DNA of 43,348 nt from Desulfobacteraceae bacterium (GTDB taxonomy: Bacteria > Desulfobacterota > DSM-4660 > Desulfatiglandales > Desulfatiglandaceae). The notes under the pieces were generated by a model. The model saw nothing but the letters and a program-made list of their open reading frames with translations. It had not been told where the DNA came from and searched no databases. This document shows positions 22,028-37,352 of this stretch, in pieces. How positions within the stretch are numbered: the stretch's first letter is position 1; each line of letters opens with the position of its first letter. A program made the translations under genes and the position numbers. The DNA lies in NCBI GenBank assembly GCA_016783065.1, contig JADHXI010000007.1, positions 1 through 43,348 on the forward strand, given 5' to 3'.

Positions 22028-22221
22028 CAATCAAGAGCAGGTGAATTCAAGGGATATCTGATACCATATATGTTATGGTTCCTTTCTCCTTGACTCACAT
22101 TGGGAAGTTTTCTATAGCCCTTTCACGAAAATGGAGGTTCTGATGAACTCAACCAATAATCTTCTACATGCAACCATTGGGGGCTCGTGCCAGGAATCAG
22201 CGGCAAAGGAGGGACAGAATA

Positions 22222-24087
22222 ATGATCGGTGGCTATATGGGCAAAATACTCGAAGTGGATCTTTCAACGGGCAGGATTTCGGAAAATGAACTTCCAGCGG
22301 AGGAGACACTCCGCAAATACCTTGGCTGTTTTGGTCTGGGGCTGCACTGGCTCTACGACAGATGTCCGCCTGGAACATCTGCTCATGATCCGGAAAATCC
22401 CTTGATTTTCTTGACGGGCCCGCTCACAGCTTCGGACGCACCGGGAGCAACCAACCTGACCCTTGTTACCAAGAATCCTGACACCGAGTTTACGGCTGGC
22501 CGATCCCATACCCATGGCTTCTTTGGTCCCAATCTCAAGTTTGCCGGATACGATGGTTTGATCGTCACTGGAAAATCTGAAAGACCCGTATTCCTCTGGA
22601 TAAATGACGGCAAGACGGAAATCAGGGAGGCTGAAAAGATTTGGGGCCGGGACACCCATGAGACGGAAGACTTGGTCAAAAAAGAACTGGGGGAACCCAA
22701 AGCGAGTGTAGCGGCCATCGGACCGGCAGGTGAGAATCTGTGTGCCGGCGCACTCATCGAGAACGATTATAATCATTCCATGGCTCATGGGGGCTTGGGC
22801 GTGGTGATGGGATCAAAGAAACTGAAGGCCATCGCGGTGTACGGAAGCAAAGAAGTCCCGGTTGCCGACAAAGACCTGGCACGTGATATTGCCAAACAAT
22901 GGCGAAAGTCACTTGACTACGGGCCGGATTCCCCATGGTCTCGTCTGGGGCGCGGCGGTGTTCCAAAAGGAGATTATAAGGGGATAAAGTCTATCTATGG
23001 TCTTTGCGTCCGTAATATGCAGACGACCGTCCTGGATGGATATGGTGACAGATGGTCAAAGCAAAAAATAACCCCTAAGCCGTGTTATCGGTGTCCCACT
23101 GCCTGCAGCTATGACTTGGAAATCCTCGAAGGCCCCCGCAAAGGCTACGTAGCTTCCCTCTGTGGAGGCGGCGAAAATGTGGAGGGCGCGTCATCCATAC
23201 TCGGGATATCGGATCTCGGTGACGTATTCTATCTCACCGACCTTTTTGATCGGCTGGGTATAGAGGCAAGCACCGCAGGCTGTACGCTTGCTATGGCATT
23301 TGAAGCGTATCAGAAGGGTCTCATCACCAAGGAGGACACTGATGGGCTAGAGTTAAGGTGGGGGGACGCTGAAGTTGTCGAAAAGATGGTCAGGAAATAC
23401 GTGGCAAGAGACGGTTTTGGTGACATCCTGGCCCGTGGACCCAAGGCAGCTGCCGAAATTATCGGTGGGGAGGCCCCTGATTTTGCTGTTCATATCAAGG
23501 GGTCGGGCATGAACCTTCACGACTGGAGAAGAGGCTGGGGGGTGCTGCTGGGACAAGTTGTCGGCTATGGTTCAGGTTGGCCGGCCCCTGGTGCTGACCT
23601 CACCCGGCCGGACCCGGACTCCGGATATCCTGAAAGAACACCCGGACTGGAACCCAGAAGCAAACCCTTGGAGGTCAGAAAGACCGGGATAACCAAATTC
23701 GCCAACGACAGTACCGGTGTCTGTTGGTTTAGTACGTGGGGAAACCCCCAGGGGCTCGAATTTGCAACCACCATGATTTCAGCGGTTACAGGTTGGGATT
23801 TCAGCCGGGAAGAGCTTCTTGAGTTTGGAGAAAGAATGCTCAATCTTGAGCGCGCCTTTGCTATAAGACACGGGCTGACACCGGAAGATGACTACAATGT
23901 ATCCAAACGGCTCATTGAAGGGCAGAAGGATGGGCCATTTGCGGGGCGGCCTTTTGCTCCCTACCTGAAGGGCATGGTGAACGAATACTACCGACTTATG
24001 GGATGGGACGAAAAGACAGGCAAGCCCTGGCGGAACACTCTCAAGCGGGTGGGCCTTGAAGAGATAATCAAGGATATGTGGGGATAG
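22222..24087 (+). CDS. Aldehyde:ferredoxin oxidoreductase, paralog 2
   Basis: ATG at 22222 after AAAGGAGGG; GGYMGKILEVDLSTGRI; CYRCPTACSYD; high similarity by eye to the 9014-10918 paralog. Confidence 0.92.
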   Translation: MIGGYMGKILEVDLSTGRISENELPAEETLRKYLGCFGLGLHWLYDRCPPGTSAHDPENPLIFLTGPLTASDAPGATNLTLVTKNPDTEFTAGRSHTHGFFGPNLKFAGYDGLIVTGKSERPVFLWINDGKTEIREAEKIWGRDTHETEDLVKKELGEPKASVAAIGPAGENLCAGALIENDYNHSMAHGGLGVVMGSKKLKAIAVYGSKEVPVADKDLARDIAKQWRKSLDYGPDSPWSRLGRGGVPKGDYKGIKSIYGLCVRNMQTTVLDGYGDRWSKQKITPKPCYRCPTACSYDLEILEGPRKGYVASLCGGGENVEGASSILGISDLGDVFYLTDLFDRLGIEASTAGCTLAMAFEAYQKGLITKEDTDGLELRWGDAEVVEKMVRKYVARDGFGDILARGPKAAAEIIGGEAPDFAVHIKGSGMNLHDWRRGWGVLLGQVVGYGSGWPAPGADLTRPDPDSGYPERTPGLEPRSKPLEVRKTGITKFANDSTGVCWFSTWGNPQGLEFATTMISAVTGWDFSREELLEFGERMLNLERAFAIRHGLTPEDDYNVSKRLIEGQKDGPFAGRPFAPYLKGMVNEYYRLMGWDEKTGKPWRNTLKRVGLEEIIKDMWG

Positions 24088-24336: not shown

Positions 24337-24612
24337 CTTCAGTACGAAACTTCTCAAAAAGTCCGGGAGAACTAATAGAATTTTTGGAGTGGGGTTCGGG
24401 TGTTTCTTGAAGGCGCTCTCTCAAAGTGGATTTACTTCTCACTTTCGCAGTGGGTGATATTTGGGGTTTTCTCCCATGAGCCCTTATTGGCTTCTCCGTG
24501 CTTTCGGCAAAACCCCAAATATCAGCCACGCTACGACGACAGGTTTAGAGAGCGCCTGAGAGAAACAGCCGAACCTCACGGTGCCCGAACTTATTGAGAA
24601 CTTACTTCAATA
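24337..24612. mobile_element. MITE-like palindromic element, copy A, with flanking imperfect direct repeat
   Basis: Element ~24346-24603. Flanks CTTCAGTAC (left) and CTTCAATAC (right). Arms: GGTTCGGGTGTTTCTTGAAGGCGCTCTCTC / GGTTCGGCTGTTTCTCTCAGGCGCTCTCT (reverse complement of right); GATATTTGGGGTTTT / CAAAACCCCAAATATCAGCCA. Confidence 0.8.
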
Positions 24613-24713
24613 CTTCGGAAGGAGGTTTGGGCCAGGGTTTGGATATTTTTTTGATTAACTGGATCTTTATCAAGTCTATCCTGTTATCCTGTCAAATATC
24701 TTGCTCCAGTGAG

Positions 24714-33004: not shown

Positions 33005-34843
33005 TCAAGGGCTCAACTCTATTCCCATTTGAGAAAGGTTTTCAATCTCATCTTCAAGATCCAATTCCTTGAGGCAGGCTATGGTGGGAATCCCGTTCCG
33101 GTCCCATTTCCTCAAGGGATAATATCTGTCTAACAATTCCTCCAAACGGACGGTGTTTCCTTTGGAGGGGCCCTCCGGGAGAGGCTCATGTAAACTTCGC
33201 CAGGGGAGGCTGTCGTCCGATCGGCCAAACCCTTCTCTGACATTAAAAAGCCGCTCCAGAGAAAAGATCCTCCGGGTAATCAGGTCTGCCTCATAATGCT
33301 CACCCGTGACGGCCTCCAGGATCTTCAAACGGGAAGAATCGTCTAGGCCGTATCGTGAAAAAGAGCAAATAACCAGGGAGTCTAGCAAACAGTAGCTATT
33401 TTGGTTCTTGTAAACCAGTTCGGGTTTCTCTTTGTTTGTTGTGAGGCCCAGGCCTTTTTCGCCTCCCAAGGTAGGCCCAGTTGAATGATTAGCGCCCGTC
33501 GGGGCTGTGGCATAAATAAGCCCCATACCCACCAGGGCTCTCGGATCGTAGGCGGCAAATCCCTTGCCTTTCGTGGACATGGCAAATCTGATGCTATCCT
33601 GACCAATCACATGGGCGGCTCGTTCGGCCCCACCACTCAAGAGGGCTCCAACACCTTTTTTTTGACCGATGGCCTCTATGGCCTCAATCAATGCATCATC
33701 ATTCCCAAATCTGAGATCAATCCCCCCTGTGTCTCCCTTGGTCAGTATCCCTTTTTCAAAACACTCCATTGCAAAGCCAATAACATTGCCCGTTTCTATG
33801 GTGTCTATCCCATATAGGTTACAGAGGCTATTGGCCCTGGCCACGGTCTCGATGTTGATAATCCCGCAATTGGTACCTAACAATCCAATGGTCTCAAACT
33901 GAGGTCCCTGTAAAACGGTCCCCGCGTAAGGCCCGGTCTTGACCAAAGACAGCTTTCCGCAGGGCAAGGGACAACTGAAACAAGACTCATCATGCAGAAC
34001 TAATTTTTCTCGGAATATCTCAGAATAAAGGTTCTCCGCCCCCTCCAGTTTCTCACCCGAGAAATTCCTCACTGGGATAATCCCCAGCTTGTTGGTGGTT
34101 TCCACGGTCATTGTGGTGCCTTTCCAGACCCGCTCCGGAACCCCCGGGTGAGATTTGACTGCGGCATAGCTCTCCCGCAAAAGCTCCAGAAATGTCTCTT
34201 TGTTCGGGACGCTGACACCTTGTTGGCCGCTGACCACAATGGCCTTTAACCGCTTTGCGCCTAATACCGCACCGGTTCCCCCTCCGCCGGCTGATCTCCC
34301 CCAATCATTGAACACCGAAGCAAACAAAACCTGCTGTTCACCTGCAGGACCAATGGTCAGGCTCTTTGATCCTCTAAGATCCTTCCGCAGGGTTTCCTCG
34401 GTATCCCAGGTTGTCTTCCCCCAGAGATTGTCCGCATCTCTGATTTCCGCTGAACCATTTTCCAGGCAAAGGTAAACAGGTTTATCTGCCTTCCCCTCTA
34501 CCACAATCCCATCAAATCCGGCGTATTTCAGCCGGGCACTGAATTCACCGCCAGACAGGCTCCTTGTATAGGTCCCTGTCAATGGAGATTTGGTAGCGAC
34601 AACATATCGCGAGGAAAACGGGACTGCGGTTCCGTTTATGGGTCCGGTCAATACATATATATTATTATCCGGTCCCAATGGGTCCGCACCCGGTTTGAGC
34701 TCATCATACATCATCCTGGATGCAAACCCCCGTCCCCCGATATACTCCAGAGCCATTTCACGCGTAACAGGCACGACCCTGGTGGTCTTCTTCGTCAGGT
34801 TAGCCCTCAATATCTTCCCGCAATAGCCGTTCACGACTGCCAT
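33005..34843 (-). CDS. Aldehyde:ferredoxin oxidoreductase, paralog 3
   Basis: GYCGKILRANLTKKTTR; GPAGEQQVLFASVFNDWGRSAGGGGTGAVLGAKRLKAIVV; CFSCPLPCGKLS; GANHSTGPTLGGEK. Confidence 0.92.
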   Translation of the reverse strand: MAVVNGYCGKILRANLTKKTTRVVPVTREMALEYIGGRGFASRMMYDELKPGADPLGPDNNIYVLTGPINGTAVPFSSRYVVATKSPLTGTYTRSLSGGEFSARLKYAGFDGIVVEGKADKPVYLCLENGSAEIRDADNLWGKTTWDTEETLRKDLRGSKSLTIGPAGEQQVLFASVFNDWGRSAGGGGTGAVLGAKRLKAIVVSGQQGVSVPNKETFLELLRESYAAVKSHPGVPERVWKGTTMTVETTNKLGIIPVRNFSGEKLEGAENLYSEIFREKLVLHDESCFSCPLPCGKLSLVKTGPYAGTVLQGPQFETIGLLGTNCGIINIETVARANSLCNLYGIDTIETGNVIGFAMECFEKGILTKGDTGGIDLRFGNDDALIEAIEAIGQKKGVGALLSGGAERAAHVIGQDSIRFAMSTKGKGFAAYDPRALVGMGLIYATAPTGANHSTGPTLGGEKGLGLTTNKEKPELVYKNQNSYCLLDSLVICSFSRYGLDDSSRLKILEAVTGEHYEADLITRRIFSLERLFNVREGFGRSDDSLPWRSLHEPLPEGPSKGNTVRLEELLDRYYPLRKWDRNGIPTIACLKELDLEDEIENLSQMGIELSP

Positions 34844-36121: not shown

Positions 36122-36398
36122 CTTGTCATCGTAGTTTCTCAATATGTTCAGGGGAAATAATAGAATTTCTGGAGTGGGGTTCGGGTGTTTCTTGAAGGCG
36201 CTCTCTCAAAGTGAATCTACTTCTCACTTTCGCAGTGGCTGATATTTGGGGTTTTCTCACATGAACCCTTATTGGTTTCTCCGTGGTTTCGGCAAAACCC
36301 CAAATATCAGCCACGCTGCGACTACAGGTTTAGAGAGCGCCTGAAAGAAATGGCCGAACCCCACGGTACACGAGTTTATTGAGAACTTACTTGTCATC
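36122..36398. mobile_element. MITE-like palindromic element, copy B, with exact 9-bp flanking direct repeat CTTGTCATC
   Basis: CTTGTCATC at 36122-36130 and 36390-36398. Terminal inverted repeats GTAGTTTCTCAATA / GTAAGTTCTCAATA. The internal arms pair as in copy A, and the whole element is highly similar to 24346-24603. Confidence 0.85.
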
Positions 36399-36446: not shown

Positions 36447-37352
36447 ATGAAGAAAGTCGGATTTATAGGCCTTGGCGCCATGGGAAGACCCATGGCAACA
36501 AATTTACTCAAGAAGGGCTATCAATTAACTCTCTTTGATTTGATATTTCGGGAGGGAGATGAAGAGTACTGGCGTCGGTTGGGCGGAGACATTGGGAAAT
36601 CGTCAAAAGACGTGGCCCAAGGTGCGGATGTCATCATCACCGTATTACCAAGCTCTGAAAATGTGAAGGATGCAGTTCTTGGTGAGTCTGGCGTCATTCA
36701 CGGGGTGGAAAAGGGATCCATCGTGATAGACATGAGTACCATAGATCCCATCACGACAAAGGAGGTCGGGGCAGCACTGGAGGAGAAGGGTGTTGACATG
36801 ATCGATGCTCCGGTGGCCAGAACCGTCAAAGCTGCAGAACAAGGAACCCTGGCGATTTTTATTGGCGGTAAAAAGGAAATTTTCGAGAAGTGCAGGGATC
36901 TCCTTGCTGCCATGGGCTCGGATCTCTTCTACATTGGTGAGTTGGGCACGGGTGAGCTCGTCAAAATCATCAATAACCAAATCCTCGCCGGGACTGTGGC
37001 CCTTTTGTCCGAAGCACTTGTCATGGGCGTCAAAGGCGGCGTAGCTCCCGATACCTTGCTGGAGGCGTTGGGAAACGGATCGGCCAACAGTTTTGCCCTC
37101 CAGAATCACATCAAGAACGCGGTAATGGAAGGAAAATTTGAAGAAGGGGTCTTTTCTGTCGAATACATGCTGAAAGACATAGGCTTTGCACTAAAGACCG
37201 GTGCCTCTTTGAATGTCCCCCTCTTTTTCACAGGACTCACCTCACAATTTTATCAGCAGGGCATTGCGGCAGGTGTGGGGAAACAATATCATCCGGCGGT
37301 CATCAGGCCTCTTGAAGAAATGACCGGGGTGAAAGTCAGATCTAAGGGGTAG
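36447..37352 (+). CDS. NAD(P)-dependent beta-hydroxyacid dehydrogenase (3-hydroxyisobutyrate dehydrogenase family)
   Basis: KKVGFIGLGAMGRPMATNLLKKGYQLTLFD; IDMSTIDPITTKEV; DAPVARTVKAAEQGTLAIFIGG; GELVKIINNQ. Confidence 0.92.
   Translation: MKKVGFIGLGAMGRPMATNLLKKGYQLTLFDLIFREGDEEYWRRLGGDIGKSSKDVAQGADVIITVLPSSENVKDAVLGESGVIHGVEKGSIVIDMSTIDPITTKEVGAALEEKGVDMIDAPVARTVKAAEQGTLAIFIGGKKEIFEKCRDLLAAMGSDLFYIGELGTGELVKIINNQILAGTVALLSEALVMGVKGGVAPDTLLEALGNGSANSFALQNHIKNAVMEGKFEEGVFSVEYMLKDIGFALKTGASLNVPLFFTGLTSQFYQQGIAAGVGKQYHPAVIRPLEEMTGVKVRSKG

Follow-up and report, generated by a model that had tools for sequence, protein, structure and literature searches.

The locus studied here raises the question of whether the long palindrome inside a small bacterial transposable element merely follows from its inverted ends or is kept in its own right. 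Bacterial MITEs are usually treated as parasites and their hairpins as a by-product of inverted ends. The window (the whole stretch of DNA that was analysed, 43,348 nucleotides from contig JADHXI010000007.1 of a Desulfobacteraceae bacterium) contains two full-length copies, A and B, of a palindromic 260-bp element, which are 91% identical (Table 1). In this element, the ends drift as fast as the target duplications; its interior hairpin does not, and shows covariation in three families. That hairpin goes beyond a mere consequence of being a MITE, a point that the original prediction on this DNA had not seen: it is conserved after insertion and across the order. Our main reading, to which we give a probability of roughly 0.6, is a MITE that would be moved in trans by an IS66-type (DDE) transposase and whose payload would be a structured RNA hairpin of ~195 nt, selected after insertion.

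A dispersed, mobile element

The original prediction had proposed a palindrome of ~260 bp with a second copy, left by a non-autonomous transposable element. Palindrome and second copy are both present, with their limits refined to those given in Table 1. Copy A is flanked by two convergent ORFs, whose 3′ ends face it, and copy B lies 56 bp upstream of the ORF at 36447. Folded as RNA, which had been suggested as a check, both copies greatly exceed dinucleotide shuffles in stability (−121.3 kcal/mol, z = −9.3 for A; −121.7 kcal/mol, z = −10.2 for B). Two aldehyde:ferredoxin oxidoreductase genes are found near the two copies (window 22168–24087 and 33005–34843).

Table 1. Features of the element and of its hairpin in the window.
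Feature	Positions	Strand	Basis or remark
Left target duplication, copy A, TTCAGTAC	24338–24345	.	7/8 match
Copy A, complete element, 260 bp	24346–24605	+	repeat search, end pairing
Left terminal inverted repeat, copy A (GAAACTTCTCAAAAAGTCCGGG)	24346–24367	+	decays as fast as the target duplications across the genome
Conserved hairpin region, copy A	24388–24583	+	covariance model R1, 1–197 of 197, E 1.1e-51
Helix 1, 5′ strand	24388–24408	+	pairs with 24560–24581
Helix 2, 5′ strand and conserved CAAA	24414–24428	+	pairs with 24545–24556
Helix 3, 5′ strand, GCAGTGG..GATATTTGGGGTTTT	24447–24470	+	pairs with 24509–24531
Variable terminal loop	24471–24508	+	
Helix 3, 3′ strand	24509–24531	+	
Helix 2, 3′ strand	24545–24556	+	
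Helix 1, 3′ strand	24560–24581	+	
Right terminal inverted repeat, copy A	24584–24605	-	
Right target duplication, copy A, TTCAATAC	24606–24613	.	7/8 match
Left target duplication, copy B, TTGTCATC	36123–36130	.	8/8 match
Copy B, complete element, 260 bp	36131–36390	+	repeat search, end pairing
Conserved hairpin region, copy B	36173–36368	+	R1 match, E 6.9e-52
Right target duplication, copy B, TTGTCATC	36391–36398	.	8/8 match

The host MAG (G000) comprises 3.69 Mb in 208 contigs and is 72% complete. A genome search for the element returned 154 candidates, 40 of which scored near full-length, and at least 75 copies with a length of ≥150 bp are present in the stretches analysed; the further copies that were to be sought by BLASTN therefore exist. 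They are dispersed and their flanks are unrelated to one another, rather than homologous as in a segmental duplication. Besides the 260-bp form, size variants of 51–148 bp, 292–293 bp and 587 bp occur in this genome. The 587-bp variant (L031:3849–4435) has MITE ends and a target duplication matching at 7/8, and unrelated sequence replaces its left side outside the hairpin, so that MITE ends can carry extra DNA. Longer elements with matching ends (2578 bp at L039; 1069 bp at L022) were dismissed as chance pairings, with duplications of 3/8.

The ends follow the consensus GTAA[C/G]TTCTCAATAAG. The outer repeat TTCTCAA had rightly been called as an inverted end but was too short, the inverted repeat consensus extending over 22 bp (GTAA[CG]TTCTCAATAAGTYCGGG). 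A 15-bp end sequence, GTAASTTCTCAATAA, has 210 matches in the genome at up to 2 mismatches, compared with 11 for the reversed control. Similarly, a flanking duplication had been correctly noticed but read as 9 bp (CTTCAGTAC/CTTCAATAC), when its true length is 8 bp: the ninth base is, on the left, a C that matches by coincidence outside the copy and, on the right, the element's own final base. Among 51 end-paired elements, the 8-bp duplication is perfect in 15 and agrees at 7/8 in 16 (31/51 at 7 or 8/8 altogether) and at 6/8 in 9, a matching fraction that is somewhat inflated since poor-ended elements were admitted only with a duplication of at least 6/8. The duplicated sequences are unique to each locus.

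At one locus, independent insertions in opposite orientation lie 22 bp from each other in two sister species (L003 in G000, L195 in G001). Each insertion is surrounded by its own 8-bp duplication and the two genomes present reciprocal empty sites. Ends, 8-bp duplications, copy number and reciprocal empty sites show that the element is mobile. It is short (260 bp, within the <500 bp of such elements) and non-coding, multi-copy and dispersed with clean empty sites, and bounded by 22-bp terminal inverted repeats and target-site duplications, which confirms it as a MITE, i.e., a non-autonomous transposable element as proposed.

The nearest named relatives with the element are the Desulfobacteraceae/Desulfobacterales MAGs CSMAG_5, CSMAG_720 and NIOZ-UU19, and blastn against plasmids and phages gave no match to it. 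A second palindromic repeat of ~214 bp, which matches its own reverse complement, is common to G000 and its congener G002 at 91% identity (L184:1918–2130 and L204:2179–2392).

IS66-type ends and the candidate transposase

IS66 elements make 8-bp duplications and have GTAA ends, canonically GTAAGCG (PMC11946415). The MITE shares with this family the GTAA… inverted ends and the 8-bp target duplications, which are also seen in relatives from other families; a duplication of 8 bp, and not 9 bp, points to IS66-type ends. It resembles IS-derived MITEs in being non-coding and present in many copies. The likeness stops after GTAA, however: the MITE ends start with GTAA[CG] and continue CTTCTCAATAAG, and the canonical GCG is absent. 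IS66 is not mentioned in a review of prokaryotic MITEs (PMC10969869).

A candidate partner is an IS66-family element in another genus of the family (L084, in G039), 1788 bp long with a single ORF of 533 aa. Its ends, GTAAGTTCTCAAAAAGTTCGGG, are a perfect 22-bp inverted repeat one base away from the MITE end (21/22), and its own target duplication matches at only 3/8. The ORF product matches PF03050 (E 1.6e-13) and NF033517 (E 2.1e-30), the latter at 106 bits, under the curated cut-off of 180 bits, which makes L084 a member of a divergent IS66 group. The interior of the MITE is not a deletion derivative of this element. Neither a PF03050 match nor a relative of the L084 protein was found in G000 and its congeners G001 and G002, genomes that are 69–83% complete. 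We consider an IS66-type transposase the likely mover, and the enzyme now or formerly in the lineage would belong to the IS66 group of L084.

Another IS66-like element (L102:1295–4119, in G011; 2825 bp) has the 8-bp duplication GTCTTTGT and ends GTATCATCTCAATAAATAGGGG. Its transposase adjoins a protein with a DruA domain (PF14236, E 2e-37), a domain of the Druantia defence system; no PADLOC model matched this protein.

Is the hairpin itself required for movement? If it were needed in cis for transposition, it would be conserved only in lines still moving, and the hairpin does occur together with GTA-type ends and 8-bp duplications in three families, in several genera of these, as one would then expect. 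Yet other MITEs in genus g13, to which G039 belongs, have the same ends around unrelated, non-palindromic interiors, so the palindrome is probably dispensable for movement; variants of 51–148 bp without the complete hairpin are still flanked by target duplications; the autonomous L084 element has no hairpin; and the arms stay conserved after insertion while the ends decay. We regard such a cis role as improbable. The hairpin was found in 0 of 34 IS66 and other-MITE loci, L084 included, and a hairpin that is part of the IS was thereby ruled out.

Slow evolution of the hairpin arms

Tree-based counts set the hairpin arms apart from the remainder of the element. By parsimony on 66 aligned copies, the arms changed 1.48 times per site and the rest 6.01 times (p = 7e-25), where the arms are six blocks forming the hairpin, drawn after inspecting the same copies, which makes the p-values optimistic; that choice does not bear on the shared insertion described below or on the order-wide data. 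In the same 66 copies, few parts of the element change faster than the terminal repeats. Because of saturation at variable sites, simple singleton counts do not distinguish the arms from other parts across the full 66 copies (p = 0.20); they do in the 33 copies with verified duplications (p = 1e-4). For this reason the tree-based counts were used instead.

As a neutral clock, we took the target duplications of the 33 copies in which they match at 6/8 or better. They have diverged by 0.049 per site per lineage, a value that the 6/8 filter underestimates, which works against the claim of slow arms. On terminal branches of the same 33 copies, the ends changed at 0.051 per site, the loop at 0.033 and the arms at 0.0137 (arms against the clock, p = 7e-7). 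One insertion is common to G001 and G002, in flanking DNA that is ~81% identical, and its two copies differ at 2 of 117 sites in the arms and at 23 of 143 elsewhere. Read simply, the ends decay freely after insertion and the arms do not, an argument resting on a clock limited to copies at 6/8 or better and on one shared insertion.

The main rival to selection is homogenisation, i.e., an ordinary functionless MITE in which arms are kept alike through template-switch correction between them and gene conversion between copies. Bacteria are known to correct imperfect palindromes by template switching, and some exchange between arms or copies may happen in this element. A possible trace of it is a 31-bp sequence, CTTCCGGCTCGTAGGGCCTCCAGCTCGGAGA, with 10 exact occurrences in the genome (L331–L340; e.g., L034:464–494, L035:405–435 and L045:349–379), always at TTTGGG^GGTTTT of the hairpin. 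Some copies have it in the 5′ arm and others at the mirrored position of the 3′ arm, and the copies that host it differ from each other by ~15%; it looks like either a tiny site-specific guest or a marker of arm-to-arm exchange. However, conversion tracts should include the spacers of 5–39 bp between the arms, and these vary 4 to 5 times more than the arms do. Moreover, arm-to-arm correction would preserve pairing without lowering the substitution rate. We therefore hold homogenisation to be an unlikely, though serious, account of the slow arms, and return to it below.

The target duplications provide a built-in clock that sets selection against neutral decay in single MITE copies, and make the functionality of MITE hairpins directly testable.

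Covariation, strand bias and precedents

Selection on a structured RNA, as in our main reading, is expected to leave compensatory changes. In an alignment of relatives from genera g1, g5 and g16 (A2), the consensus has 44 pairs with 98.2% of cells paired, and 11 pairs changed on both sides, a number reached by 0 of 500 shuffles. Of the 85 genomes of the order searched with a covariance model built from these relatives, 24 have full-length matches, distributed over three families, with E-values of 1e-15 to 1e-19 even in other families and often 10–29 copies per genome. An unconstrained MAFFT alignment of 29 of these order-wide matches (A4) keeps 94.0% of cells paired and shows compensatory change in 36 of 47 pairs; the 224 compensatory cells compare with a shuffled mean of 64 (0/500), and sliding the partners abolishes the signal. 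Compensatory pairs thus exceed shuffles in both alignments. Widening the search to the class covered the same 85 genomes and yielded nothing further, and in a sample of 395 genomes of the phylum a single one from outside the order matched (G439).

Whole helices are rewritten between genera (GCGCTCTCT/AGAGAGCGC to GCGATATCT/AGATATCGC), while the unpaired CAAA and GCA on the 5′ side are kept across families, and homogenisation does not conserve such unpaired bases from one family to another. Hairpins of other families are likewise framed by 8-bp duplications and by GTA-type inverted ends whose sequence differs, such as GTATCGTTCAAAAGTGT in family f4 and GTTATACTTTAGCTCTTT in G037. One genome, G074 (L297–L309, L275), has most of its hairpin copies without GTA-type ends. 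A recent subgroup there is found between GGACGTGGCTTTG and CCACGT...TTTTCAAGTTAC flanks, which form hairpins of their own, as though a different type of vehicle had carried it.

Nothing in the window matches Rfam 15 at the gathering score, and at a relaxed threshold the sole hit was mir-2788, whose 19.8 bits fall short of the cut-off of 62; the predicted hairpin family is undescribed and absent from Rfam.

The strand on which pairing is relaxed offers a second line of evidence. On the + strand of the consensus, Watson–Crick pairs of the arms changed 44 times to G-U and 17 times to A-C, the latter being equivalent to G-U on the opposite strand, whereas the other pairs of the element changed 85 times to G-U and 95 times to A-C. 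Order-wide, the counts are 43 and 16 (p = 6e-4). The strand bias becomes modest, at 37 and 18, when common G-U sites are left out. All pairs counted together on the tree give 191 and 207, with no G-U excess, so that the excess appears only with the arms separated. It is independent of orientation to neighbouring genes, and homogenisation gives no preference of G-U over A-C. In addition, one strand of the covariance model clearly outscores the other at most loci compared, meaning that the hairpin's asymmetry has been conserved as well. The G-U bias fits a selected single-stranded RNA from the + strand better than duplex DNA or a two-sided cruciform, and we infer that an RNA read off the consensus + strand is what is conserved.

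The alternative that selection acts on DNA, with the arms serving as inverted sites for a DNA-binding or nucleoid protein or as a cruciform, draws on the conservation of arm sequence within the genus beyond what pairing asks for, and on a random orientation to genes. Helices rewritten by compensatory change between genera and G-U pairs tolerated mainly on one strand both disagree with it, and we find it hardly probable. That random orientation (20 copies in the same and 20 in the opposite direction relative to tandem genes) means that the + strand would need a promoter of its own; no convincing internal promoter or terminator was seen in the element.

A small peptide encoded by the conserved interior is the least probable alternative, far down the scale. 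It is suggested by some f4 relatives in which GGAGG is followed by ATG and the frame MAVFERRYLKKNST... in the 5′ arm. At L276, L280, L281 and L285, this takes the form of a GGAGG-like motif, ATG and the short frame MAVFERRYLKK..., which is not conserved across the family. In G000, any given frame is open in at most 7 of the 66 copies, which excludes a coding role in that genome; alignment gaps shift the frame between groups, and conservation follows base pairs instead.

It is reasonable to hypothesize, within our main reading, the following course of events. An IS66-type transposase would act in trans on the GTAA... ends and create the 8-bp target duplication; each copy would then be transcribed, under its own promoter or one nearby, to give a long hairpin resembling double-stranded RNA, whose asymmetric internal loop bears the CAAA and GCA motifs. 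As a conjecture, this hairpin could be the substrate or binding site of a host factor, such as an RNase III-like nuclease or an RNA-binding protein, and could act as a dispersed small RNA or a transcript-processing element. Copies would presumably persist because either host or element benefits from the RNA. A wider proposal, on which we are evenly divided, is that an order-wide structured-RNA family spreads as MITE payload, swaps ends between genera and remains under purifying selection, once the ends have started to decay, at tens of independent insertion sites in each genome, thus forming a dispersed gene family of small RNAs or transcript-processing elements. If the RNA is real, a multi-copy RNA family of uncultivated sediment bacteria is missing from Rfam.

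Finally, known systems offer precedents for the proposed hairpin RNA. Transcripts containing the Correia elements of Neisseria (CREE/NEMIS) are reported to be cleaved by RNase III (PMC10969869). These elements resemble ours as dispersed MITEs of similar size with over 100 copies, and differ in ends, target duplication and host. Neither order-wide covariation nor slow post-insertion evolution of an interior hairpin is known for them. QMITE1 and QMITE2 of Coxiella burnetii, with ~50 copies each, form stable hairpins and some are transcribed as small RNAs (PMC5896051); unlike the MITE described here, they are confined to one species, are unrelated in sequence and have direct repeats of 2–3 and 7–11 nt. 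REP/BIME repeats are likewise palindromic, intergenic and present in many copies, whereas our MITE is set apart from them by its 260 bp, its DDE-type ends and its 8-bp target duplications.
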